DNA of 64,000 nucleotides from Trifolium pratense (taxonomy: Eukaryota > Streptophyta > Magnoliopsida > Fabales > Fabaceae), in assembly GCF_020283565.1 (NCBI RefSeq), contig NC_060062.1:27464251-27528250 (forward strand), given 5' to 3'. Under the pieces are notes generated by a model. That model had not been told where the DNA came from and did not search any database. It worked only from the letters and a program-made list of their open reading frames with translations. This document shows, one piece after another, positions 34,736-59,600 of the stretch. The position numbers were made by a program, and so were the translations under genes. Every line of letters begins with the position of its first letter. Within the stretch, counting starts at the first letter, position 1.

Positions 34736-36711
34736 TAATTTGTTTATTTTTTATTTGTCTTTTATTTTAACTAATTTTAATTTTAAAACAAAAATATAAG
34801 AAAACATAACAAATTGATACCCAAGACTTTAGAATTAATCACTAAATTCTTTATATATCTCTCTCTCTCCCACACTGAGTGAAAGTGAATTAGATTTTGC
34901 AACACCCTATTTCTAATTCAGATAATTTTTGACCCATTCATGTGACAGTGATGCAAAATCTTTATACACAGTGAACTAAATGGGGGAGTATTGAATTGCT
35001 TTTTTACATTGTTTTGAAGTATTGAAGTAGAGAAAGATTCAATTTTGAAGTGATGGTGTAGTGTAGCGAGTGTTGTCATTGTGGATCTAGCGGCAGGAAC
35101 AAAAAACAATAAATTGCAAAGATCCATATTAAAAACAAAATAAAATCTTGAACAAGAAACCAGATCTGGAAGATGATATGACAGGAAATCAGATCTAGAA
35201 CAAGAAATTGGATTTGATTGTGTTTTTTAACGGTACAGACGTACAACGGAAAAAATACCCAAAGAGGAAGTAAAAAGGAAGAGAGAACGAAAATGTAGAA
35301 AATATGGAAAATGGTTAGCCAAAAAAGAAAAACCTTCTTCTCAATGGTGGTGGGATAATAGTACTAAAACACCATAGAGGATGTAAAAGGAAAAACAGAG
35401 AATTTTTAATTTTTTTTCTTTTGATATGATTTGTGCCACACTCTCTGTTCCTTTTCACTTCACTTCACTTACTTTATGAATGAATGTATGGGTTTGTAGG
35501 ATGAGTTTCTTGGTTTGATTGTGGTTGAGTATTAATTTATTTTGGAGTAATTGATTAAGCTTTTCTTTTTTAAATTAGTATCAATATCAATTAAAATAAA
35601 AGCAAAGCGGATGTAAAAATATTCAACAAATCTCTACAACTACACAAGTGTAAATCAACTATTAGCAAAAAAAAACAGGTGTCAACCTCTAAGGTTGTCC
35701 ACATAGGATCTGAGCTTTCATGTTTAGACAAAAATTTATCCTAATTTAGGCAATGTTTTCAAAATTGTTGATGGAGGGAAAAAAGTGTGAAGAAATGATC
35801 AAAGGGCCACAAAATTGGGTCGAAAATGCAAGGCCTGTTGCATTTAGGCCCAAAACGAATGAAAAAAACAAAATGAGCTAGCAAGTAGTGTCACTTTCAT
35901 TTCTCTTCCCACGTTGCTTTCTCTGTCTCTTTTCTTTTTCCTTCTTCACTAACCCATTTTGGTGAAAAAACCAAAAGCATGTTTTCAAATTTCAAATTCA
36001 AAAACTTCAATACAATCTTTATCTTTGTGACTCATCCTTTCTTTCTTCCATTGCATATACAAGATTCTCTCTCTTTTTTTTTTTTCATCCCCCATCTCTC
36101 TCATAACAACAACTCACGCACAACAACAAAGCTGGTAATCTTCCTCCGTATCAAATCGGCACACCACCATCTCATCCTTTAATATGAAACCAAAAATGCC
36201 GACAACCATTGTTTTTCCGGTAACACTCTTAATCTCAGGTTCTTTCATTTTTTAAATCCCTAATTTTCTTCAATTGTATTTCTAGCCCTCTTTATCGTTT
36301 TTTTCAATTCTGAATTAGAGGCAAAAAAATTGGTCTGAAACCCTAACAAATTAATCACGTCAATCAGGTGAGAGATATCTAAATGTTTTTTTTTGTTTCT
36401 GTTATTGTTGTTTCAAATGAATTTTGATTCTATTTTTCTGTTTTCACTTAGATACATGGAGTAACTTTGATTTTGATTTCAAGCAAAATATCAATTGAAG
36501 CGGCTATGTATTGAAGTAACTTTGGTGATCTTTGGATTTTCATGAAGGAATGTTCAAAGGGCTTCTCAAAAAACAAGGTAGGTCTTTTGATTTTCTAAAT
36601 CTAATGTTTAAATATTTTACTATAATAATGATTGTTTTTCTAACTCTATTGATTTCAATATTTGCTTTAATTGGTGTTCCTAATTTGTTTTCTAATTTCA
36701 TTCAATATTTG
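34736..36711. other. Host sequence left of copia element
   Basis: From about 35,900 onward the sequence resembles 52,670-53,170 ('cccattttggtgaaaaa-ccaaaagc', 'ctttgtgactc', 'caatcaggtgagat') with divergence. This indicates an old tandem duplication that continues at 45,394-46,800. Possible splice signals are present (caatcag/gtgaga; aacaag/gtaggt at about 36,573), but no protein can be proposed. Confidence 0.45.
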
Positions 36712-37882
36712 TGTTGGGTTTTTGTATGTTGGCTACATTTTGCAAAAACATCTTTTAGCCAAGTGTTGAGACATATGTGCTTACGCCAAGTGTTGCGACA
36801 GATGTAACAACACTTGTATGTCTGATTGTTCACGCCAACTAGCGTTTTTATTTTCTACTCAATCTTTCGAAGATTTGATTGAAGAATTGTTTCGTGGTTT
36901 CTTACTCAACAAGGCGCACGTGATCAATGTGTTTCAGAAGGCAGCTGAACCCTAGTTCTATTTTCTAAAAGGATAAAATAACTTTTAGAAAATATAATAT
37001 TTGTTTCAAAAATATATCTTGTGAAGATTGCTGCAGAAAATATAAAAGATTTATTTCAAATAAATCTTTGTGTTTCCAGAAGATTAGAAGATTTAATTTT
37101 AAAATATATTTACAACAAATATATTTATGGAAGGAATATTTGATGCAAAGAAAGATTTGATAAAAATATATATTTTGCATCTAGAAGATTTCTTGGAGCT
37201 GAAGCATTATGAAAAGCCCACGAGGCTCTGCTATTTAAAGGGTGTTGCTAACCCTTATTATGCACCGAAACTTGAAGCTAAAAATAGAATATCAAAGATG
37301 TAGTCTTTTAAGGGTTTCGTGTCTTTAAGCCACTCTCTAGGAGAGTTGGTGTAAAGTGAACCACTCGAGTTGTGAGATGGTCACTATGTCCTCACTCAGA
37401 AACCTATAGGTAATGAGTTGAGTATTGTAATTGGAGGAAGCTTTTAAGCAACTCCAAATTGTGAACTTAGTCGTTGGCTAGGTGGTGATGTTATTGAAGT
37501 GTGTCTTCATCTTTGTCAAGGAGAGTGTCTCCATTATGTTGTTATTGAAATCCTTACTGGTTGTAAGGTTGAGGGGAGTGAGACGGGGTCTCATATCTAG
37601 GAGTTCCTAGGTAGAAGTTGCATTGGGTAGGGATTAAGTGAGGAGTTGTAAACGGGGGAGTTTAGCTCCGAATTAATACTGCTGATAGTGAATTTCCTCC
37701 TGGATTGGTATCCCCGAGATTAGGCTGTTAGGCTGAACTGGGTTAACAATTATGTGTGTCGTTTATGCTTTTCAGTATATGTTTTTAATGCTCTGTTTTA
37801 TTGTTCTTACTGCTAAGACAAGTGTTGCGACAAGTGTCGGCACATCGTGGACAACACTTGTCTACTGTGTACCAGAATTTCA
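36712..37882 (+). repeat. 5' LTR of copia element
   Basis: 1,171 bp. It contains a TATA-like TATTTAAAG at about 37,229 and two hairpins: CAAGTGTTG/CAACACTTG (36,787-36,795 with 36,808-36,816) near the start, and AGACAAGTGTTG/CAACACTTGTCT (37,816-37,827 with 37,852-37,863), a perfect 12-bp stem only 19 bp from the LTR end. Confidence 0.92.
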
Positions 37883-37902
37883 ATTGGTATCAGAGCAGGC
37901 AT
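37883..37902 (+). other. Primer-binding site of copia element
   Basis: Directly after the LTR end, 'att' is followed by GGTATCAGAGC, complementary to the 3' end of plant initiator methionine tRNA, the usual primer of copia and SIRE elements. Confidence 0.85.
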
Positions 37903-39298
37903 CCTGTTCTGTATCTGGGTGAGATCCTAGGGAAGATACTTTCTGGTTATGAACAAGTAAGGAATACTGAAAAGTTGTTTGGACTTGAAGAAGTTCATAT
38001 TTGTTTGAATGGTCCCTAGAAGTGGAGGATGGACTATTCATGGCACGGTGTATAGCTTTGATGTTTGAGCTTCTGTATGGTTTGATTTATTTTCAAACCT
38101 ATGTTAACCTGTTGCACCTGAAGTGTGGAGTTTGTGCAAAGGTCATTATGGTGTGCCTGAAGTTTGTTGAGGAGTTTTCTGGTTTGAATTCCGCTGCATA
38201 CATATATGATGGGAAAACTCCTGGTGGTTTTGAGTGTGCTACACTCTGTTCTCCTCTGGTGAGGTTCAACTAACTTGTTGGAGATGCCAACGATACTTGA
38301 GGGTGATCTCAAGTCCACTCATAAAGGCACTCATATATGAGTTTGTTGAAGAGAGATCTGAACGAAGTTGTGACCAATTTATTTTTGCTTCTAACCCTAA
38401 AAGCCAACCTCCAGTGGCTTTGATAAAGGATCTCTTGGTGTGTTCCTTGAGAAGGGGACTGATGTCGTCCCAGATGTTGCTACATCTGACCAGCAGTATG
38501 CAGAATCTTGTTGGATTTATTTTGACACTAGAAACTTATGGTTGACTTCTTGGGTGAGTTTATTTCTGATCCAACTAAGTGGTAGTGCAGATGTGTATTT
38601 TGTTTTTCCTGTGTAAGCTTGATAAAGGTATCTCATTCAAATTCTTTATGTGGAGGTCAAGCTTAAATGTCAAGGACATTTTCTCTGACATCTGGAGAAT
38701 CCTTCTGATCAAAGGAGCCAGATTTATGGAATCTTGTTTATGGCCATGAAACAGATTCTGTTTGGAGGAGAGTAACTTGTGTATACCAACCACTAGATGT
38801 GCAGCTATTGAAGGGGGGAATGTATAATTCTCTAGAGTGCTATGAGAAGTTATTAATGAGGAATCCTTATTCTGAAGCTGTGAGATCTTGAAGACATGTC
38901 AGGATGGAGGTTGTTTACTCTAACTTGATATTATCAAGTCTATGAGAGCATAGAACTCTTGTTCTGTTGTAGTGAAAAGAGCTTCATGGGATTATGAACA
39001 TTGGAGCTGCTTCAACCTATGTCCAATGGTTGAATTGTTATATGCACTTTGGAGTGTCATCCAAATCACATAGGATAGGCATTTCAGTTGTTTCTAGCAA
39101 GGAGAAGTTATTATTTTTGGGAGCAAAGGATTATTGCTCTTTGGTATTGAAAGTTGATCAACTACTGATGGTTGATTCTCTTCTGCTGTTGTTAATTGTG
39201 ACTTTGGTGCTTCCACTAAGGCCACAAGTGATTGTATTGCTGATTCTCTCAAGGGAACTGTCCTTGAGACTGATGTTGTATCAAATATTGACACATCT

Positions 39299-39763
39299 GT
39301 GGCACTTGAGACGGATGTTGTGTCAGATGTTGACACATCTATGGAACTGGAGACAAATGTTGTACCAAGTGTAGGTACATTTGGGGTACTTGAAATTGTC
39401 ACAAGTGACACTGCTCATAATGATGCTACTGAAAAAGAAGGAATTCCTGTGGTAGCAAAATCTAGTAATAATCTTGTGGATTACTCTGAATCAGATGAAA
39501 GCAGTAAGTCCCTATCTAAAGGTAAGGGAGTGAGTGATTCTGATGTTGTCTTCATGCATGAAAACGTTACAGGTGACAAACTTGTGACAGAAGTGTCTGA
39601 TACTGGTGTTGGTAAAAGGACTAGAAGTAGGACAGGTAAAGGTGTGACAACTGTTAGTACACCTGTCCATCACTCTGAGGCAGAGAAGTCTGCTAAAATG
39701 GCTGGGAAGAAAATTGTGACTGGTCCCCCTAGAACCAGGAGCAAGGTGATTCCAACTTCTTAG
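39299..39763 (+). pseudogene. Variable linker region upstream of env-like domain
   Basis: An open 154-codon stretch, Ser/Thr/Val- and acidic-rich, with basic KRTRSRTGK patches. It repeats a degenerate peptide of the type 'NVV-x-x-VGTS/F'; at DNA level this is the recurrent 'gatgttg...gacacatctg' motif. A TAG at 39,761 separates it from a further stretch before the env-like domain. Such low-complexity linkers occur in front of the env-like domain in SIRE-type legume elements; assignment is by position and composition. Confidence 0.5.
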
Positions 39764-39865
39764 GTCAAGAAGAAGAGCTTAAAGAGAACAGAACCTCATT
39801 CTAGTGATTCAGACTTTGAAAGGGAGACAAATGTAGCTACATCTGGTGGCACGTCTTGAAGAAGT

Positions 39866-40543
39866 GTGAAAGGTTTGATGAGAAAAGTGTCTGATCTAGG
39901 TGACTGTTTTGATAAGCTGGTTAGGGAATTTGTAGTGAATGTTGCTGACAATTGTGATGACCCTAAAAACCCTGAGTATAGGCAGGTTTTTGTGAGAGGA
40001 AGGTGTGTTCACTTCTCACCCTCTATAATCAACAAATTTTTGGGAAGAAGTAATGAGGAAGTAGCTGAGCTGGAAGTCACAGATAATGAAATTTGTAGAA
40101 CAATCACTGGGAATAGGCTGAAGCAATGGCCTTGTCAAATGAAACCTTCTGCATCTCAACTATCTCCTTTATATGCAGTTCTGAATAAGATTGTTGTTGT
40201 TAATCGGGTTCCTACCACTCATTCCAGTAATGTAGCCAAAGAATTGGCTAGGTTCATTTATGTTGTTGGAACTAAGGCCAGGTTTGATTATGGTGCTTAT
40301 GTCTTTTATGCCACTTTGGAACATGCTAAATCTTTTGCTCTACAACTACCCATAGCATTTCCTACTTTACCGTGTGGTATTGTTCTTGACCAACATCCAA
40401 ATATTCTTGTGGACACTGATGTCCCTTGTAAAAGAAAAGGAAAGCTGAATATTGAGCAAAGGCTGCTTGCAGGGACAAATGTTGCAGCAGGTGTTGGTAC
40501 ATCTGTCCAGCAAAAGCTGGTGCTCTCACTAGGCAGCAAATGA
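39866..40543 (+). pseudogene. SIRE env-like ('plant transposon protein') domain, copy 1
   Basis: A 225-codon open frame with the conserved VRGRCVHFSPSIINKFLGR block, then ELARFIYVVGTKARFDYGAY and PCGIVLDQHP, recognised as the domain annotated in legume SIRE elements as envelope-like or putative plant transposon protein. It lacks an independent start context and is cut off from the linker upstream by stops. No transmembrane segment is evident in this part. Function in these elements is unproven. It lies upstream of an integrase remnant, the reverse of the usual pol-then-env order, so the interior is rearranged. Confidence 0.7.
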
Positions 40544-40663
40544 TAACTGACTTAAATGAGTCTAGTAGAGCTCTCAAGAAACTGAAGACTGTGATGATCC
40601 TTAGAGTAAAGAATTCATGAAAGTTTTTTTTACATGGGTTGATGTGTTGAATTTTCACCTGCT

Positions 40664-40915
40664 GTGATTAATAAGTTTTTAGGCAGGAGTGGAGAACCTG
40701 AAGCTGAGCATGCTAAGTCTTTGGCTGTGAAGATGCCAACAACATTTCCCACTGTGCTTTGTAGTATTATTCTTGATCAGCATCCAAGTATTTTGATCAG
40801 CTCTGATGTTGTCTGTAAGAGGGAATCTCCTCTCACATTGCACTATAGACTAGTTGAAGGGACAAATGTCCCACATAATGTTGCAACATCTGGCAAGAAA
40901 ATTCTGGCTTCATGA
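40664..40915 (+). pseudogene. Env-like domain, copy 2, internally deleted
   Basis: An 83-codon frame that repeats the start (INKFLGRSGE) and end (EHAKSLAVKMP, SIILDQHPSIL, LTLHYRLVEGTNV) of the env-like domain, with the middle third missing. The join lies between GRSGEPEA and EHAKS. It is a second, diverged copy placed just after copy 1. This suggests template switching between two related elements, or duplication followed by deletion. Confidence 0.65.
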
Positions 40916-40957
40916 CAGAAAAAGAGATGATTGCTGATTTGATGAGACCTATGCAAG

Positions 40958-41035
40958 TTGAAAAACCTTGGTCGAAAGAAGTATGTCTTTTTAGTTGTTG
41001 ATGATTCCTCCAGATTTACTTGGGTAAATTTTATT
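40958..41035 (+). pseudogene. Integrase core fragment
   Basis: The peptide KKYVFLVVDDSSRFTWVNFI at about 40,976-41,035 is the first block of the copia integrase core, including its catalytic Asp. It is fused to unrelated sequence on both sides. It is the only pol remnant I could identify. Confidence 0.7.
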
Positions 41036-42819
41036 AATATCGAATCAAATGTTGTTACTCATGTTAAAGGTTCTGTCAGTTCAAATGTTGTGGGTAGTGT
41101 TGGAACATCTGTCAGATGTACCTCTGAAACTTTCAATCTGGTATGAATGTTGCTATTGTTGATGACACTATTGTTGAAATCGTGCATGTGTCATCTTCCA
41201 AGGTTGTTGGTTCTGACACTTTGTCATCCCTCACTAAAGTTGTGGTTGAGTCCCCCAAAGGAACCTAACATAAGTCTAATGTCATATCGGATGTTGAAAC
41301 ATCCTGGACCAACCAGTTAGTGTTGTTGAAACCTGTTCTGCAATCCCCCAAACTTATGCTGATATGGTTCTGAGAGTCCTCAATCTAATGAGGTTAAAGA
41401 TCAACTAATGGTGGTTTGGAGTATTAAGGTTTTGAATGTGGTAGAAGAAACTAATCTTGATGATCTTCCACTTGACCAAAGTTGTTGCTCAAAGTGTGAC
41501 TAAAAGAGAACTAGCATGGTACGATTGTTTGGATGTGCATTCTGCTGAGAAGTATTATATGTGTTCAAATGTGTTATGATCAGATGCGATAATGCTCAGA
41601 TATGTGATGATCAAAGGTGATTACTACTATGGTAAGTGATTGTTTCAGACCTGTTTCTGAAACCTCTAGTTTGATGTTCTTATGTGATGACAATATATCT
41701 ATTGTTGAAGATGCTTTTGGTATATGTCTCTTGAGATTGACACTGAATAATACTCATCTGTGTTGAATAACTTGTATGTTCTGGTACGAGATGTTGTAAC
41801 ATCTGTCTCAACATCGTGTTATCTCAAGTGTTCCAACATTGTGTACAACATCTGTCACCAAAATGCCAAAATGTGGTTGACTCTGAGCCAAATATTGAGG
41901 ATGATGTTCTGGGCATCATGTCACTTGACAGGAAGAAAGTTGACATCTCTTCTGTCCTCTTAGAGAATGTTTCATTCATTTTGAAGAAAATGTCTAGAAA
42001 TAGAAATTTGTGTTTTAAAGGAGAAAATGTTATGAGAAGCTGGATTTTTTGTGAGTATGTTTTTAACTATGAAGCAAGCTACAGCGTTTATGGTGAAGCT
42101 ACCAATAACCTTTATGGGTGTAATCTCTAAGAGTATTATGAGACAACTCTTTGAGATTGAAAGATCAGAAGCACTCCAAAGCCAAAAAAAAAAAAAAAAC
42201 AAAAAAAAGGAGTGTCTTTGACTTCTGACTATAGATTTCTTTTGTCGGACCACATGTTCCTAACATTGTTTTCTCTGCCGGTTGGTACATGTTGTTTCCA
42301 AGAACAATGTTTTCTCATGCTCTTGTCATGTTGTGGAAACAAGGGGAAAATGTCTATTTTATGAGTGTTAACTATGGAGTTTGATGTGGTAGATATGATA
42401 TGGTTCCTCCACTTCTGATATATATCTGATGAACTATGTATCCCATGGTGTTATATTTGGTTGTAGTAGCTCTGTGCACTATGTGGTTGATGTGATGAAG
42501 ATAGTATAGGTTTATGCCTTGTTACTTATGATCTTCATGCTATACTGTTGGAGTTTGGTCATGGTATTGTGGATGAAAGCGCACATGTTCTCTTTCCACT
42601 ACTTTTGTTCTCCGTATCATTTGTGGGCTAGGCCATGGATTTCTAGCACCTGTATGTGCCTATGGTCTGGAATATCTGCACTCTGGATATTTCTGTTTTT
42701 GCTACTCTGTGTTCTGATATGTATGATGTATGTCAAAATTATGACTAAAAAGGAGGAGTAGTGTGTGTGTGGACAAATGTGTGGACCGATGTTCTTACAT
42801 TTGGTGAAGTTGCTGTTCT

Positions 42820-42871
42820 TATGCTTCTATGCTCGTATTGATGTTCTTATGCTTCTATGCTCGTATTGAGG
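42820..42871 (+). repeat. Tandem duplication of a 30-bp word
   Basis: 'gttcttatgcttctatgctc' followed by 'gtattgatg' is repeated once directly, ending in 'gtattgaggggga'. A (AT)10 microsatellite follows at about 42,885-42,904. Confidence 0.8.
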
Positions 42872-43287
42872 GGGAGTATGAGTAATATATATATATATAT
42901 ATATGCATGTGTTGAGGGGGAGAAATGCTATTCAGGAGGAGTAGTAGTGTGTAGCTAGCTTGATAATGTGTTCTGCTAGCTTATGCTCTGATAGTGTGTT
43001 TAATGGTTGTGGGAGTGTTATGTTCCTGATGTGTGATGTCATGTCTGATGTCTAGACATCCTGATCTGATGTGTGAGAATTTATTTTTCTCAGTATGTGG
43101 GAGTTTATTTCTCCCTATGTGGTTCTTTTGTGAGAGTTTAGTTCTCTCTGTTATGTAACTTGCACTTCTGATACTGCTATGGTACCTCTTTGCCTCTATT
43201 CTTTTGTTTAATGCACACTGACTTTATTTGTCAGAATTTGTGGCTAAAAAGGGGAGTAGTGATCTGTGATATGTAAGATCTATCTGT

Positions 43288-43350
43288 GTGGACAGATGTG
43301 CTGACATCTGGTATCTGCGTGATGTGTGGACAGATGTGCTGATATCTGGT
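43288..43350 (+). repeat. CAGATGT hairpin motif pair
   Basis: GGACAGATGTGCTGACATCTGG at about 43,292 pairs CAGATGT with ACATCTG over a 4-nt loop. The next copy about 40 bp downstream has CAGAT/ATCTG. They belong to the 'GACA-x-ATGT ... ACAT-x-TG' motif found throughout this element. Confidence 0.65.
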
Positions 43351-43492
43351 GTGTATGTTGTTGCGGTTCTTTCTGCGATGTGATAATCTTCTAGGCCTAT
43401 GTCTGAGTGGAGTAAATGTTACCTTCAGCTCTGTGTGATGTGTTGCAAGAATTCCAAAAAACATTTAAATTTGTAGCATAGGGCATGATCAT

Positions 43493-43660
43493 AATCATAG
43501 TCATAGAAATATGGATGATTCATCGTGCTTAGTCATAATCATAGAAATATGGATGACTTTTATGCTTAGGATCACAGTCATAGAAATATGGGTGATTTAG
43601 GTCACATTCATAGCAATATGGGTGACTTAGTTAGTTACATTCATAGAAATATGGGTAACT
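43493..43660 (+). ncRNA. Five two-stem GNRA-tetraloop hairpins with covarying outer stems
   Basis: Copies at 43,493-43,520, 43,531-43,558, 43,571-43,596, 43,601-43,626 and 43,633-43,660. Each has an outer stem (AATCAT/ATGATT, AGTCAT/ATGACT, ATCAC/GTGAT, GTCAC/GTGAC, AGTTAC/GTAACT), a 3-nt 5' linker (AGT, AAT, AGT, ATT, ATT) opposite a single G, then an inner stem CATA/TATG closed by GAAA (four copies) or GCAA (one copy), both GNRA tetraloops. Three outer-stem positions show double, pair-keeping changes. The array sits between the two clusters of TTTATTT hairpins. Confidence 0.6.
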
Positions 43661-44211
43661 TGTACATGCTTATTTATGAATGCACACATGTGTGTCTACA
43701 ACAACTATTAAGCGTTAATCACTCTGATTGAATGCTTCTGCTATTACAAGGATGTTGTAGTTCCTATGGTTGATTACATTGTATGCTTGTGCTCTGTCAT
43801 GCATAAATTCAGGGGGAGTGGTAGTATGAATAAGTGACAAGTGTGATGCCAGATGCTGAGACATCTTGGCTTTATTCTCTGGTGGCTGGGAATTTATTTT
43901 TCCTAGTTCTATGTTTGTGGGAATTTATTTTTCCCTGGTGATCTTTTGTTGAATGGATGTACTCTGATTATAGGAGTTTATTTCTCCTATCTTTGAATCC
44001 ACTATGAGAGTTTATTTCTCTCTATCTGCTCTGTGAGGCTATATGTGTTTATTCCTGCTATTGCATGCCTCTGATGCTACTTACCTCTCTTGGAAGTAGT
44101 CTTACTATGTGTTACTTTCTTTCCTAGTTGTGTGATCATGTTGACTCGAAGGAAAGGTAATATTGTATCTCTCTATATACTGGTCTAATATTGTTTTAGC
44201 CAAAATTTGCC

Positions 44212-44223
44212 AAAGGGGGAGAT
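44212..44223 (+). other. Polypurine tract of copia element
   Basis: AAAGGGGGAGAT immediately before the 3' LTR; the expected site for plus-strand DNA priming. Confidence 0.85.
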
Positions 44224-45393
44224 TGTTGGGTTTTTGTATGTTGGCTACATTTTGCAAAAACATCTTTTAGCCAAGTGTTGAGACATATGTGCTTACGCCA
44301 AGTGTTGCGACAGATGTAACAACACTTGTATGTCTGATTGTTCGCGGCAACTAGCGTTTTTATTTTCTACTCAATCTTTCGAAGATTTGATTGAAGAATT
44401 GTTTCGTGGTTTCTTACTCAACAAGGCGCACGTGATCAATGTGTTTCAGAAGGCAGCTGAACCCTAGTTCTATTTTCTAAAAGGATAAAATAACTTTTAG
44501 AAAATATAATATTTGTTTCAAAAATATATCTTGTGAAGATTGCTGCAGAAAATATAAAAGATTTATTTCAAATAAATCTTTGTGTTTCCAGAAGATTAGA
44601 AGATTTAATTTTAAAATATATTTACAACAAATATATTTATGGAAGGAATATTTGATGCAAAGAAAGATTTGATAAAAATATATATTTTGCATCTAGAAGA
44701 TTTCTTGGAGCTGAAGCATTATGAAAAGCCCACGAGGCTCTGCTATTTAAAGGGTGTTGCTAACCCTTATTATGCACCGAAACTTGAAGCTAAAATAGAA
44801 TATCAAAGATGTAGTCTTTTAAGGGTTTCGTGTCTTTAAGCCACTCTCTAGGAGAGTTGGTGTAAAGTGAACCACTCGAGTTGTGAGATGGTCACTATGT
44901 CCTCACTCAGAAACCTATAGGTAATGAGTTGAGTATTGTAATTGGAGGAAGCTTTTAAGCAACTCCAAATTGTGAACTTAGTCGTTGGCTAGGTGGTGAT
45001 GTTATTGAAGTGTGTCTTCATCTTTGTCAAGGAGAGTGTCTCCATTATGTTGTTATTGAAATCCTTACTGGTTGTAAGGTTGAGGGGAGTGAGACGGGGT
45101 CTCATATCTAGGAGTTCCTAGGTAGAAGTTGCATTGGGTAGGGATTAAGTGAGGAGTTGTAAACGGGGGAGTTTAGCTCCGAATTAATACTGCTGATAGT
45201 GAATTTCCTCCTGGATTGGTATCCCCCAGATTAGGCTGTTAGGCTGAACTGGGTTAACAATTATGTGTGTCGTTTATGCTTTTCAGTATATGTTTTTAAT
45301 GCTCTGTTTTATTGTTCTTACTGCTAAGACAAGTGTTGCGACAAGTGTCGGCACATCGTGGACAACACTTGTCTACTGTGTACCAGAATTTCA
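44224..45393 (+). repeat. 3' LTR of copia element
   Basis: 1,170 bp, nearly identical to the 5' LTR. Differences seen: two substitutions at the 'ttcacgccaac' versus 'ttcgcggcaac' site, one substitution in 'atccccgag' versus 'atcccccag', and one A fewer in the 'gctaaaa' run. Confidence 0.92.
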
Positions 45394-45500
45394 ATTTGCT
45401 TTATTGTTTTCTAATTTCCTAATTTGGATTTTTGTGTCAAAAAAAAAAAAAAAACTTTCCTTGGATTTCATGAGTTTTGATTATTTGTTTTTTTGTTGAA

Positions 45501-46804: not shown

Positions 46805-47237
46805 TGTTCTGGTAAAAAACAAGGGGGTTTGTATTATTTGATAATGATAGAAATACAAAGCTCTCCTTAGAGAAGAAATTGATAAACTTTACAATAATGA
46901 AAGAATGGTGGTTTCTCAGAATGAGAGTCCCTTTATTCTCTTGAAGAAGATCCTATTTATAGGCAAAACATCTCCCTCTTGTTGCTTGATAACCGCCTTG
47001 CTTGGAGAGGAATTCATGGGTAGTGGGCGGTTACTTTTCCTTCTTCTCCAAGCTTCTTCCTTCTTCTCCAAGCTTCTTCCTTCTTCTCCAAGTTTCTTCC
47101 CTCTTCTCCAAGTCATGGTGGATCATGCTTATCATGTGTTTTTCATGGTTGTTTTCACGCTTCTCCTTTAGATGCTCCCATTGGGCTTTTTCGTATTGGG
47201 CCTTAACAAATCACACCCTGGTCCATGGCCCGGTACA
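46805..47237 (-). repeat. 3' LTR of gypsy-type element
   Basis: Ends TGTACCGGGCC (minus-strand start) and CCAGAACA. It contains four near-copies of a 17-19 bp word around 'cttcttctccaag' at about 47,037-47,115. Confidence 0.9.
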
Positions 47238-48084: not shown

Positions 48085-50200
48085 CGCTCCCTACGGGTAA
48101 CGCCAAGGCATTTCGACCTTGTTTTATTTTCTTTTTCTGACGCCCCCAACTCGTAAGACTTACAGGTAACGCCAAGGCCTTTCAACCTTATTTTATTTTC
48201 TTTTTCTGACGTACCCAACTCGTAAGACTTACAGGTAACGCCGAGGCCTTTCAACCTTGTTTTATTTTCTTTTTCTGACGTACCCAACTCGTAAGACTTA
48301 CAGGTAACGCCAAGGCCTTTCAACCTTGTTTTATTTTCTTTTTCTGACGTACCCAACTCGTAAGACTTACAGGTAACGCCAAGGCCTTTCAACCTTGTTT
48401 TATTTTCTTTTTCTGACGTACCCAACTCGTAAGACTTACAGGTAACGCCAAGGCCTTTCAACCTTGTTTTATTTTCTTTTTCTGACGTACCCAACTCGTA
48501 AGACTTACAGGTAACGCCAAGGCCTTTCAACCTTGTTTTATTTTCTTTTTCTGACGTACCCAACTCGTAAGACTTACAGGTAACGCCAAGGCCTTTCAAC
48601 CTTGTTTTATTTTTTTTTTCTGACGTACCCAACTCGTAAGACTTACAGGTAACGCCAAGGCATTTCGACCTTGTTTTATTTTCTTTTTCTGACGCCCCCA
48701 ACTCGTAAGACTTACAGGTAACGCCAAGGCCTTTCAACCTTATTTTATTTTCTTTTTCTGACGTACCCAACTCGTAAGACTTACAGGTAACGCCAAGGCC
48801 TTTCAACCTTGTTTTATTTTCTTTTTCTGACGTACCCAACTCGTAAGACTTACAGGTAACGCCAAGGCCTTTCAACCTTGTTTTATTTTCCTTTTTCTGA
48901 CGTACCCAACTCGTAAGACTTACAGGTAACGCCAAGGCCTTTCAACCTTGTTTTATTTTCTTTTTCTGACGTACCCAACTCGTAAGACTTACAGGTAACG
49001 CCAAGGCCTTTCAACCTTGTTTTATTTTCCTTTTTCTGACGTACCCAACTCGTAAGACTTACAGGTAACGCCAAGGCCTTTCAACCTTGTTTTATTTTTC
49101 TTTTTCTGACGTACCCAACTCGTAAGACTTACAGGTAACGCCAAGGCCTTTCAACCTTGTTTTATTTTCTTTTTCTGACGTACCCAACTCGTAAGACTTA
49201 CAGGTAACGCCAAGGCCTTTCAACCTTGTTTTATTTTCTTTTTCTGACGTACCCAACTCGTAAGACTTACAGGTAACGCCAAGGCCTTTCAACCTTGTTT
49301 TATTTTTTTTTTCTGACGTACCCAACTCGTAAGACTTACAGGTAACGCCAAGGCATTTCGACCTTGTTTTATTTTCTTTTTCTGACGCCCCCAACTCGTA
49401 AGACTTACAGGTAACGCCAAGGCCTTTCAACCTTATTTTATTTTCTTTTTCTGACGTACCCAACTCGTAAGACTTACAGGTAACGCCAAGGCCTTTCAAC
49501 CTTGTTTTATTTTCTTTTTCTGACGTACCCAACTCGTAAGACTTACAGGTAACGCCAAGGCCTTTCAACCTTGTTTTATTTTCCTTTTTCTGACGTACCC
49601 AACTCGTAAGACTTACAGGTAACGCCAAGGCCTTTCAACCTTGTTTTATTTTCTTTTTCTGACGTACCCAACTCGTAAGACTTACAGGTAACGCCAAGGC
49701 CTTTCAACCTTGTTTTATTTTCCTTTTTCTGACGTACCCAACTCGTAAGACTTACAGGTAACGCCAAGGCCTTTCAACCTTGTTTTATTTTTCTTTTTCT
49801 GACGTACCCAACTCGTAAGACTTACAGGTAACGCCAAGGCCTTTCAACCTTGCTTTATTTTCTTTTTCTGACGTACCCAACTCGTAAGACTTACAGGTAA
49901 CGCCAAGGCCTTTCAACCTTGTTTTATTTTTCTTTTTCTGACGTACCCAACTCGTAAGACTTACAGGTAACGCCAAGGCCTTTCAACCTTGTTTTATTTT
50001 TCTTTTTCTGACGTACCCAACTCGTAAGACTTACAGGTAACGCCAAGGCCTTTCAACCTTGTTTTATTTTTCTTTTTCTGACGTACCCAACTCGTAAGAC
50101 TTACAGGTAACGCCAAGGCCTTTCAACCTTGTTTTATTTTTCTTTTTCTGACGTACCCAACTCGTAAGACTTACAGGTAACGCCAAGGCCTTTCAACCTT
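48085..50200 (-). repeat. 69-bp tandem array (about 30 units), open reading frame on minus strand
   Basis: Unit core on the plus strand: 'acgtacccaactcgtaagac', then 'ttacaggtaacgccaaggcc', 'tttcaacc' and T-rich spacer; 69 bp, some units 70 bp. At 69 bp the minus strand stays open and encodes a 23-residue repeat with GLGVTCKSYELG and a lysine-rich spacer; 70-bp units shift the frame. Variants ('ggcatttcgacc', 'acgcccccaac', 'cttatttta') recur as a linked multi-unit block at about 48,101-48,260, 48,650-48,800 and 49,340-49,500, which shows multi-unit duplication. Each unit has a CAAGG ... CCTTG mini-hairpin. Arrays in this 3' position of LTR elements are a known source of plant satellites. Confidence 0.9.
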
Positions 50201-51858: not shown

Positions 51859-52291
51859 TGTTCTGGTAAAAAACAAGGGGGTTTGTATTATTTGATAATG
51901 ATAGAAATACAAAGCTCTCCTTAGAGAAGAAATTGATAAACTTTACAATAATGAAAGAATGGTGGTTTCTCAGAATGAGAGTCCCTTTATTCTCTTGAAG
52001 AAGATCCTATTTATAGGCAAAACATCTCCCTCTTGTTGCTTGATAACCGCCTTGCTTGGAGAGGAATTCATGGGTAGTGGGCGGTTACTTTTCCTTCTTC
52101 TCCAAGCTTCTTCCTTCTTCTCCAAGCTTCTTCCTTCTTCTCCAAGTTTCTTCCCTCTTCTCCAAGTCATGGTGGATCATGCTTATCATGTGTTTTTCAT
52201 GGTTGTTTTCACGCTTCTCCTTTAGATGCTCCCATTGGGCTTTTTCGTATTGGGCCTTAACAAATCACACCCTGGTCCATGGCCCGGTACA
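51859..52291 (-). repeat. 5' LTR of gypsy-type element
   Basis: 433 bp, same as the other LTR by eye. The minus-strand TATA box CTATAAATAG lies at about 52,006-52,015 and would start the element transcript. Confidence 0.9.
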
Positions 52292-55489: not shown

Positions 55490-58400
55490 TAACTCACGGG
55501 GACTGTATGATTTTATGTAGACTTTATCATACGCTCTATGTTTTGTGTATCCATTCAAGATTACATTAATTTTTTATGAAATTTATAATTTCATAATGTA
55601 ACTGTGTAATATGATATATGTTTTACCATAAATAAATTTGAAATTTCGTATCTCTCAAAAATGCACGGGGACTGTATGATTTTATGTAGACTTTATCATA
55701 CGCTCTATGTTTTGTGTATCCATTTTGTCTATCCATTCAAGATTACATTAAATTTTTAATTGAATTTATAATTTAATAATGTAATAGTGTAATATGATAT
55801 ATCTTTTACCATAAATAAATTTCAAATTTCGTATCTCTCAAAAATGCACGGGGACTGGATGATTTTATGTAGACTTTATCATATGCTCTATGTTTTGTGT
55901 ATCCATTTTGTCTATCCATTCAAGATTACATTAATTTTTTAATTGAATTTATAATTTCATAATGTAACCGTGTAAACATAGATATATTTTTTACCATAAA
56001 TAAATTTCAAATTTCGTATCTCTCAAAAATGCACGGGGACTGTATGATTTTATGTAGACATTATTATACGCTCTATGTTTTGTGTATCCATTTTTGTCTA
56101 TCCATTCAAGATTACATTAATTTTTTAATTGAATTTATAATTTCATAATGTAACCGTGTAATATGATATATGTTTTACCATAAATAAATTTCAAATTTAG
56201 TATCTCTCAAAAATGCACGGGGACTGTATGATTTTATGTAAACTTTATCATTCGCTCTATGTTTTGTGTATCCATTTGTCTATCCATTCAAGATTACATT
56301 AATTTTTTAATTGAATTTATAATTTCATAATGTAACCATGTAATATGATATATGTTTTACCATAAATAAATTTCAAATTTCGTATCTCTCAAAAATGCAC
56401 GGGGACTGTATGATTTTATGTAGACATTATTATACGCTCTATGTTTTGTGTATCCATTTTTGTCTATCCATTCAAGATTACATTAATTTTTTAATTGAAT
56501 TTAAAATTTCATAATGTAACCGTGTAATATGACATATGTTTTACCATAAATAAATTTCAAATTTAGTATCTCTCAAAAATGCACGGGGACTGTATGATTT
56601 TATGTAGACTTTATCATACGCTCTATGTTTTGTGTATCCATTTGTCTATCCATTCAAGATTACATTAATTTTTTAATTGAATTTACAATTTGATAATGTA
56701 ACCATGTAATATGATATATGTTTTACCATAAATATATTTCAAATTTCGTATCTCTCAAAAATGCACGGGGGCTGTATGATTTTATGTAGACTTTATTATA
56801 CGCTCTATGTTTTGTGAGTCCATTTTTGTCTATCCATTCAAGATTACATTAATTTTTTATGAAATTTATAATTTCATAATGTAACCGTGTAATATGATAT
56901 ATGTTTTACCATAAATAAATTTCAAATTTCGTATCTCTCAAAAATGCACGGGGACTATATGATTTTATGTTGACTTTATCATACGCTCTATGTTTTGTGT
57001 ATCCATTTTGTCTATCCATTCAAGATTACATTAATTTTTTAATTGAATTTATAATTTCATAATGTAACCGTGTAATATGATATATCTTTTACCATAAATA
57101 AATTTCAAATTTCGTATCTCTCAAAAATGCACGGGGACTGTATGATTTTTTGTAGACTTTATCATACGCTCTATGTTTTGTGTATCCATTTTGTCTATCC
57201 ATTCAAGATTACATTAATTTTTTAATTGAATTTATAATTTCATAATGTAACCGTGTAAACATAGATATATGTTTTACCATAAATAAATTTCAAATTTCGT
57301 ATCTCTCAAAAATGCACGGGGGCTGTATGATTTTATGTAGACTTTATCGTACGCTCTATGTTTTGTGTGTCCATTTTTGTCTATCCATTCAACATTACAT
57401 TAATTTTTTAATTGAATTTATAATTTCATAATGTAACCGTGTAATATGATATATCTTTTACCATAAATAAATTTCAAATTTCGTATCTCTCAAAAATGCA
57501 CGGGGACTGTAAGATTTTATGTAGTCTTTATTATACGCTCTATGTTTTGTGTATCCATTTGTCTATCCATTCAAGATTACATTAATTTTTTATTTGAATT
57601 TATAATTTCATAATGTAATCGTGTAAACATAGATATATGTTTTACCATAAATAAATTTCAAATTTCGTATCTCTCAAAAATGCACGGGGACTGTATGATT
57701 TTATGTAGACATTATTATACGCTCTATGTTTTGTGTATCCATTTGTCTATCCATTCAAGATTACATTAATTTTTTAATTGAATTTATAATTTCATAATGT
57801 AACCGTGTAATATGATATATGTTTTACCATAAATAAATTTCAAATTTAGTATCTCTCAAAAATGCACGGGGACTGTATGATTTTATGTAGACTTTATCAT
57901 ACGCTCTATGTTTTGTGTATCCATTTGTCTATCCATTCAAGATTACATTAATTTTTTAATTGAATTTATAATTTCATAATGTAACCATGTAATATGATAT
58001 ATGTTTTACCATAAATAAATTTCAAATTTCGTATCTCTCAAAAATGCACGGGGGCTGTATGATTTTATGTAGACTTTATCCTACGCTCTATGTTTTGTGT
58101 GTCCATTTTTGTCTATCCATTCAACATTACATTAATTTTTTAATTGAATTTATAATTTCATAATGTAACCGTGTAATATGATATATCTTTTACCATAAAT
58201 AAATTTCAAATTTAGTATCTCTAAAAAATGCACGGGGACTGTATGATTTTATGTAGACTTTATCATACGCTCTATGTTTTGTGTATCCATTTGTCTATCC
58301 ATTCAAGATTACATTAATTTTTTAATTGAATTTATAATTTCATAATGTAACCGTGTAATATGATATATGTTTTACCATAAATAAATTTCAAATTTAGTAT

Positions 58401-59600
58401 CTCTCAAAAATGCACGGGGACTGTATGATTTTATGTAGACTTTATCATACGCTCTATGTTTTGTGTATCCATTTGTCTATCCATTCAATATTACATTAAT
58501 TTTTTAATTGAATTTATAATTTCATAATGTAACCGTGTAAACATAAATATATGTTTTACCATAAATAAATTTCAAATTTCGTATCTCTCAAAAATGCACG
58601 GGGACTTTATGATTTTATGTAGACATTATTATACGCTCTATGTTTTGTGTATCCATTTTTGTCTATCCATTCAAGATTACATTAATTTTTTAATTGAATT
58701 TATAATTTCATAATGTAACCGTGTAATATGATATATGTTTTACCATAAATAAATTTCAAATTTAGTATCTCTCAAAAATGCACGGGGACTGTATGATTTT
58801 ATGTAGACTTTATCATACGCTCTATGTTTTGTGTATCCATTTGTCTATCCATTCAAGATTACATTAATTTTTTAATTGAATTTATAATTTCATAATGTAA
58901 CCATGTAATATGATATATGTTTTACCATAAATAAATTTCAAATTTCGTATCTCTCAAAAATGCACGGGGGCTGTATGATTTTATGTAGACTTTATCCTAC
59001 GCTCTATGTTTTGTGTGTCCATTTTTGTCTATCCATTCAACATTACATTAATTTTTTAATTGAATTTATAATTTCATAATGTAACCGTGTAATATGATAT
59101 ATCTTTTACCATAAATAAATTTCAAATTTCGTATCTCTCAAAAATGCACGGGGACTGTATGATTTTATTTAGACTTTATTATACGCTCTATGTTTTGTGT
59201 ATCCATTTTTGTCTATCCATTCAAGATTACATTAATTTTTTATGAAATTTATAAGTTCATAATGTAACCGTGTAATATGATATATGTTTTACCATAAATA
59301 AATTTCAAATTTCGTATCTCTCAAAAATGCACGGGGACTGTAAGATTTTATGTAGTCTTTACTCTTTATTATACGCTCTATGATTTGTGTATCCATTTTG
59401 TTTATCCATTAAATTTAATATTAATTTTCAAATTCTATATCTCTACAAACTGCACGGGGACTGTAAGATTTTATGCAGCCTTTATTATACGCTCTATGTT
59501 TTGTGTATCCATTTTCCGTATCCATTAAATTTAATATTAATTTTCAAATTTTATATATCTAAAAAATGCACTGGAGCTGTATGATTTTATGTAGCCTTTC
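55490..59600 (+). repeat. Satellite-like array, about 24 units of 182-185 bp
   Basis: Starts of the word 'gcacgggg' at 55,663, 55,846, 56,031, 56,215, 56,397, 56,581, 56,763, 56,946, 57,129, 57,314, 57,498, 57,682, 57,864, 58,046, 58,230, 58,412, 58,596, 58,780, 58,962, 59,146 and 59,329 give periods of 182-185 bp. The first unit (55,490) and the last two (about 59,452 and 59,567) are shortened or diverged. Variants (tttcg/tttag before 'tatctctc', ggggactg/gggggctg, tttatcatacg/attattatacg) recur in order: the block starting 57,682 matches the one starting 58,596, a five-unit (914 bp) higher-order repeat. The array runs into a Helitron 3' end. Confidence 0.92.

Follow-up and report, generated by a model that had tools for sequence, protein, structure and literature searches.

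The window, a 64-kb stretch of Trifolium pratense DNA analysed here at its full length, carries a complete LTR retrotransposon on the forward strand. Its borders, priming signals and only recognisable gene are as follows.

36712-45393, + strand: complete LTR element, with LTRs, target-site duplication, primer binding site and attachment site
36712-37882, + strand: 5' LTR, 1171 bp, with the target-site duplication ATTTG (36707-36711) just upstream
37885-37896, + strand: primer binding site TGGTATCAGAGC, 2 bases past the 5' LTR, the sole + strand occurrence within the window
39866-40543, + strand: env-like ORF remnant, PF20167 (Pfam, E 2.9e-20)
42869-42922, + strand: two upstream polypurine tracts AGGGGGAG (42869 and 42915), exact matches
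43811-43818, + strand: upstream polypurine tract AGGGGGAG, exact match
44214-44225, + strand: terminal polypurine tract with the attachment site, reading AGGGGGAG-AT/TG at the 3' LTR junction
44224-45393, + strand: 3' LTR, 1170 bp, with the target-site duplication ATTTG (45394-45398) just downstream

The 5' and 3' LTRs were 99.66% identical, with three mismatches and one gap over 1171 aligned columns, and this identity together with the intact target-site duplication indicates that the element was mobilised recently. We take TGGTATCAGAGC to be a primer binding site of the Met-tRNA type. Three Sirevirus characters were found, namely clustered AGGGGGAG tracts, an AT/TG attachment site, and an env-like gene, the last occurring in some members, in agreement with the first-pass annotation, which had called the carrier SIRE-like. 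All four exact tracts lay no more than 1.4 kb from the 3' LTR, the remainder of the 64-kb window holding two on the + strand and one on the minus strand. For a candidate inverted repeat at the junction of polypurine tract and LTR, the reverse complement of the left arm, TTGGCAAATTTTGGC, was compared with the LTR sequence TTGGCTACATTTTGC by eye only.

PF20167, listed in Pfam as 'putative plant transposon protein', was the only Pfam family in the internal region, where 16 sense ORFs (stop to stop, at least 60 codons) were scanned, and the ORF encoding it is an interrupted remnant. It was 97% identical to an unnamed protein, and 62% (P0002) and 85% (P0005, over part) identical to T. pratense envelope-like proteins; an envelope-like protein of T. 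pratense or T. medium was the source name for 14 of its 81 homologues. Neither gag/pol nor RT was detected by Pfam in these 16 sense ORFs. Directly 3' of the first env-like copy lay a second, shortened one (40643-40912), its middle absent, with 73% identity to the first over 22 aa and 52% over 67 aa. An adjoining ORF piece (40946-41143) gave no Pfam match and had three unnamed homologues; it includes the stretch VVDDSSRFTWV, which by eye resembles part of the copia integrase core, and hints that the internal region has been rearranged. The carrier can thus be described as a Sirevirus-like element of recent insertion, in which an env-like remnant was found and gag/pol was not. It may be a non-autonomous, LARD-like element, and its young LTRs would then point to mobilisation in trans. 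No second copy was found in the rest of the window (blastn, E 1e-3).

Downstream of the element, two satellite-like tandem arrays were found, one at 48092-50200 (69-bp unit, 30 copies, with minus-strand open frames) and one at 55541-59428 (184-bp unit, 21 copies). The 69-bp array was flanked by two smaller arrays approximately 5 kb apart (47037-47112 and 52091-52166) that shared a 20-bp consensus unit, copy number, and score, and possibly mark a long direct repeat.

A GNRA hairpin array in the 3' linker

Between the env-like remnant and the 3' LTR, approximately 560-730 bases upstream of the latter, lay five copies of a short hairpin.

43493-43520, + strand: copy 1, outer arms AATCAT/ATGATT, loop GAAA
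43531-43558, + strand: copy 2, outer arms AGTCAT/ATGACT, loop GAAA
43570-43597, + strand: copy 3, outer arms GATCAC/GTGATT with a G.U pair, loop GAAA
43600-43627, + strand: copy 4, outer arms GGTCAC/GTGACT with a G.U pair, loop GCAA
43633-43660, + strand: copy 5, outer arms AGTTAC/GTAACT, loop GAAA

The RNA fold predicted for each hairpin was ((((((..(((((....))))))))))), comprising a 6-bp outer stem, a 2-nt bulge on the 5' side, a 5-bp inner stem, and a GNRA loop. The loop was closed by a helix in all five copies, by sequence and in the predicted fold, and was GAAA in four and GCAA in one. The span 43493-43660 given by the first-pass annotation was exact, and the outer arms, GNRA loops, and inner CATA/TATG stem were as it had described them. 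Two details of its drawing required revision. It had allowed outer stems of 5-6 bp; the arms were correct, and copies 3 and 4 reach 6 bp by way of G.U, so the 5-bp length does not hold. Likewise, the letters of its 3-nt/1-nt internal loop were right and the loop itself was not, the predicted fold setting the conserved U against a conserved G to leave the 2-nt 5' bulge and a U.G pair, the first of the inner stem in 5/5 hairpins. Spacers measured 10, 11, 2, and 5 nt with no fixed spacing; the hairpins are kept and the tandem register is lost.

Folding favoured the sense strand. Relative to dinucleotide shuffles, the 188-nt array folded at -50.3 kcal/mol on the + strand (z -4.23, 0/200 shuffles as good) and at -34.1 kcal/mol on the minus strand (z -2.15, 5/200 shuffles as good), and each of the five hairpins had a better sense than antisense fold. 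In 150-nt windows over the array, + strand z scores were lower than those of the minus strand at 43451 (-3.2 vs -1.3) and 43601 (-1.1 vs -0.1), and the strands tied at 43526 (-2.7). Among the hairpin pairs G.U and U.G were present and A.C was absent. Rfam returned no match above gathering score across 42700-44300, the two weak minus-strand matches lying far below it.

Compensated variation in the outer stems

All 55 pair cells of the five-copy alignment were paired. Three pairs were double-changed (2-27, 4-25, and 6-23; five double-changed cells), the same number of pairing-preserving stem positions that had been noted from the sequence alone, and a fourth pair had G.U in two copies. A search of both strands of the window with the core CATAGAAATATGG, allowing at most one mismatch, gave five occurrences, each with 6/6 outer pairs; since a search on the core alone finds all five, pairing of the outer arms played no part in their selection. 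When two mismatches were allowed, three more cores appeared on the + strand, with 3/6, 1/6, and 1/6 outer pairs. A covariance model built from the five copies found no sixth in the window, the next match having an E value of 0.27. Of the 120 possible assignments of 3' arms to 5' arms, only the real one paired all 30 outer cells, and slid registers of the alignment paired 32-46% of cells. All four combinations of pairs 2-27 and 6-23 occurred among the five copies, so a single split is insufficient and compensation must have arisen, or been reshuffled, repeatedly.

Neutral decay was simulated with five copies diverging from a perfect stem, using random stem sequences and an assumed coalescent tree. 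With exactly seven variable outer columns, full pairing was retained in 14/36,000 runs, and in 4/36,000 together with at least three double-changed pairs; with seven or more variable outer columns the corresponding figures were 10/60,000 and, with three double changes, 2/60,000. The claim that simple tandem-repeat decay would not match both arms was therefore borne out, and matched arms are unlikely to have arisen by chance, even allowing for the approximately 50 tandem-repeat rows in the window. Support from alignment shuffles was uneven. Of 500 shuffles, four reached the paired percentage and covariation score, 60 reached three double-changed pairs, and all 500 reached the number of pair types; two of the five measures are thus unimpressive, and shuffle support from five sequences alone is limited.

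Variation was concentrated in the outer stem, where 7/12 columns varied, compared to 1/14 in the loop and inner stem (Fisher p 0.009). The sole tetraloop change does stay within GNRA, as had been pointed out, a weak argument given that one in three random substitutions of GAAA would do the same. The whole sample comprised these five copies and nine hairpins of a second kind, all from one element.

A second hairpin family flanks the array

The second family is defined by a TTTATTT loop and occurs at the following positions.

43074-43234, no strand assigned: first cluster, loop TTTA[TG]TT at 43080, 43104, 43137, and 43223, with the respective 5' arms TGAGAA, GGGAG, GAGAG, and CTGAC
43884-44022, no strand assigned: second cluster, loops at 43893, 43924, 43977, and 44011, with the respective 5' arms GGCTGGGAA (three G.U), GGGAA, ATAGGAG, and GAGAG
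38079-38099, no strand assigned: GGTTTGA-TTTATTT-TCAAACC, an isolated hairpin close to the 5' end of the internal region

The two clusters flank the GNRA array, and parts of them align together at 74% and 78%. The linker reads, in order, tracts 42869 and 42915, TTTATTT cluster, GNRA array, tract 43811, TTTATTT cluster, and tract 44214. Seven of the eight TTTA[TG]TT sites in the linker were closed by five or more Watson-Crick pairs, and the eighth had a nine-pair stem with three G.U. Stems of at least 5 Watson-Crick bp were present at 8/17 such sites in the element and 0/95 outside it (Fisher p 5e-8); with G.U allowed, the counts were 9/17 and 3/95, and on the minus strand 0/2 in the element and 0/81 outside.

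Across the nine stems, all five pairs varied, each on both sides, with 15/45 cells double-changed. These hairpins were gathered by requiring at least four pairs, which inflates the pairing figure of the nine-stem alignment, and the comparison across all TTTA[TG]TT sites is the fairer control; registers slid toward the 5' side were still 71-84% paired. As in the GNRA hairpins, variation fell on the stems, with 10/10 stem columns variable vs 1/7 in the loop (Fisher p 0.0006). Windows over the clusters mostly had lower z scores as minus strand (43001: -4.6 vs -2.0), and the linker mean z of -1.04 on the + strand and -1.67 on the minus strand makes it less likely that the TTTATTT family works in the sense strand only. 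The linker is shared by two covarying hairpin families, the GNRA array and this one; the first-pass annotation had noted neither the second family nor that gag/pol is undetected in the carrier.

A palindromic box with one-sided changes

The element also carries a third repeated motif, GATGT-N4-ACATC, present in six exact copies and six more with one changed arm letter.

38473, 39326, 41290, 41790, 43047, and 43295, strand not given: exact copies, by pattern match
39830, 40490, 40877, 42788, 43333, and 43852, strand not given: copies with one change, by pattern match

The first pattern had fixed arms; relaxing it to at least 8/10 matching arm letters allows one double change per site. At this threshold the element held 23 sites, of which 6 were exact, 6 differed at one arm letter and 11 at two, those in the LTRs being counted twice; together they showed 28 one-sided changes and no double change. 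A further 17 sites were found elsewhere in the window, and some of the 11 two-change sites are therefore chance matches. The box varies as a DNA box would, and resembles a local form of the repeated motif known from Sireviruses, lacking its CGG-CCG core. A nearly fixed tip or loop with double-changed stems is the pattern expected if pairing, and not stem sequence, is selected, and the exclusively one-sided changes of the GATGT box provide an internal contrast that favours a selected-structure reading of the GNRA hairpins.

Short inverted repeats were abundant in the element more generally. In a count whose LTR borders differed by 1-5 bases from those given above, hairpins with stems of 5 or more bp numbered 23 in each LTR against approximately 9 expected (8.9 for the 5' LTR), 59 against 35.6 in the internal region, and 25 against 9.0 in the 3' linker, where 7 of the 25 belonged to one AT microsatellite. 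There was no excess in the two flanks (53 vs 50.9 and 20 vs 25.8 expected), and a distant stretch of the window showed a mild one (59 vs 44.4), reached by 8/200 shuffles. Longer inverted repeats, based on GTGTTG...CAACAC, were located at both ends of the LTRs (36790-36813 and 37822-37857, with 3' LTR counterparts at 44302 and 45333). An ordered structure along the whole element was also considered, for which windowed mean z scores were weak, at -0.43 (+) and -0.60 (-) in the internal region vs 0.00 to -0.37 in the flanks; LTR z scores were -1.31 to -1.79 on both strands.

Discussion

The reading we favour, at a probability of roughly 0.45, is that selection maintains the GNRA hairpins as a fold of the genomic RNA (sense strand), where they may serve as repeated protein-docking sites for export or packaging. 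Docking and packaging are among the roles that the first-pass annotation had put forward as possible, beside dimerisation and translation. Sites at which proteins dock typically combine a conserved tip, an interchangeable helix, and irregularly placed copies, which is why we favour docking. The recognised part would be the tip, made up of the GNRA loop with the 5-bp inner stem, which the 2-nt 5' bulge separates from the outer stem; the second base of the bulge is free. The outer stem would need only to be helical, leaving its letters able to change as long as the partner changes too. The irregular spacing suggests hairpins that work one by one, with avidity supplied by copy number. An RNA-binding protein, either the Gag of a helper element or a host export factor, would dock on the array and so commit the unspliced transcript to export and packaging. 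A recently moved element without gag/pol would need a signal that another element's Gag can read, as in BARE2. Against this reading count the small sample, five copies from a single element, the two unimpressive shuffle measures, the strand tie in one of three windows, and the location of the known copia-type packaging signals, which lie near the 5' end.

A broader version, to which we give appreciably less credence, extends selection to the 3' linker as a whole. The GNRA array, TTTATTT clusters, and polypurine tracts would together constitute a modular RNA handle serving helper-driven export, packaging, and copying of an element without gag/pol, with loop and stem pairing under selection in each hairpin family. 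If true, no structured cis element backed by covariation would have been described before for the Sirevirus linker, within the literature searched.

Somewhat less probable again is that the array acts in nuclear export or RNA stability and has no part in packaging, a host RNA-binding protein recognising it much as happens with the MPMV CTE or the avian DR. Bulged stem-loops that recur past the env-like remnant and before the 3' LTR would be consistent with such a role, and the CTE occupies a like position. The analogy draws on the CTE and the avian direct repeats described in PMC3856414.

The chief non-functional rival, which we hold to be about as improbable as export alone, is palindrome-templated correction, whereby template switching of reverse transcriptase or polymerase at imperfect hairpins would match the arms irrespective of function. 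The element is rich in short inverted repeats and its two flanks have no excess, and for tandem repeats in the 3'UTR of plant LTR elements, abnormal strand transfer or illegitimate recombination has been given as the origin (PMC7004042). However, correction of this kind should have erased both the 2-nt bulge and what is, as DNA, a T/G mismatch, and each was kept in 5/5 copies. It also offers no reason for a near-fixed tip and TTTATTT loop beside variable stems, and it leaves the restriction of GATGT changes to one side unexplained. It therefore fits poorly.

It is more doubtful still that the hairpins are a part of reverse transcription, pausing synthesis, transferring strands, or protecting the polypurine tracts on the RNA or cDNA template. 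Their interleaving with multiple tracts in the linker would accord with this, as would the mostly better minus-strand folding of the TTTATTT clusters, which fits a single-stranded minus cDNA; the GNRA array, however, prefers the sense strand, and all the evidence comes from a single element. Least probable are dyad-symmetric DNA boxes of the Sirevirus repeated-motif type, acting in transcription, or hairpins feeding small-RNA silencing: such boxes cluster in LTRs and before env (PMC2829016), small RNAs map in excess to the palindromic regions of maize Sireviruses (PMC10760457), and the element has a box of its own in GATGT-N4-ACATC, but the changes of that box are one-sided where those of the GNRA and TTTATTT families are double, and 5/5 GNRA and 8/9 TTTATTT hairpins lie past the env-like ORF, with none in an LTR.

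Homologues were sought beyond the window. In viral contigs, the double-hairpin pattern, the two-copy TTTATTT pattern, and the polypurine/LTR junction each gave 0 matches, the env-like ORF pattern gave 17 stretches, and an env alignment of 20 sequences gave 56 stretches, neither of the last two including a relative. Two genome-contig matches to the double-hairpin pattern, in Tetzosporium hominis and an uncultured Planococcus, were discarded, as both hold one shared repeat that by eye lacks the outer stems and is apparently coding. Docking of the GNRA loops within the RNA was likewise considered. In the 11-nt receptor for GAAA, a CCUAAG strand stands opposite UAUGG; UAUGG is present in each hairpin, the element has no CCTAAG on its + strand, and this candidate was rejected.

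Comparison with known systems

Sireviruses possess palindromic repeated motifs with consensus boxes, 66.5-100% identical within an element, 12 of 13 having a CGG-CCG core; they occur in LTRs and in the linker, where 77 of 79 copies lie upstream of env (PMC2829016). Our hairpins resemble these motifs, as described there, in being short, repeated, non-coding palindromes able to form hairpins. They differ in that the loop or tip is fixed, the arms covary, and the location is after env, and the CGG-CCG core was absent from all five GNRA and nine TTTATTT hairpins. One-sided vs double changes within one element provide a simple way to tell DNA palindromes from RNA structure across Sireviruses. The array also recalls the 3'UTR tandem repeats of Tat/Ogre LTR elements, in being a short array just before the 3' LTR; those are hypervariable repeat DNA, and the available part of that account makes no mention of compensated hairpins (PMC7004042).

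Among animal retroviruses, the direct repeats of Rous sarcoma virus are a putative transport element for unspliced RNA, the CTE stem-loop is bound by NXF1, and a packaging defect from changes in the 3' untranslated region appears as the title of a cited work (all PMC3856414). The MPMV CTE and these direct repeats share with our array a repeated or stem-loop RNA lying outside coding genes, for unspliced RNA (PMC3856414). Unlike them, the array consists of five short GNRA hairpins in a plant element, and is likened to them by layout.

In barley, RNA of the gag-less BARE2 is packaged in BARE1 particles (PMC3735527). Our carrier is similar to BARE2 as a copia element without detected Gag, BARE2 RNA being known to enter the particles of another element (PMC3735527), and differs from BARE1/BARE2 in belonging to a separate copia lineage. 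The array described here, repeated and compensated in an element that is poor in genes and moved recently, offers a small and testable candidate for a trans-packaging mark. No description of covarying hairpin arrays in the Sirevirus linker was recognised among the papers listed from open PMC full text. Hairpin-forming Sirevirus palindromes and 3'UTR tandem repeats are known, and what is new here is an RNA array with fixed loops and covarying stems.
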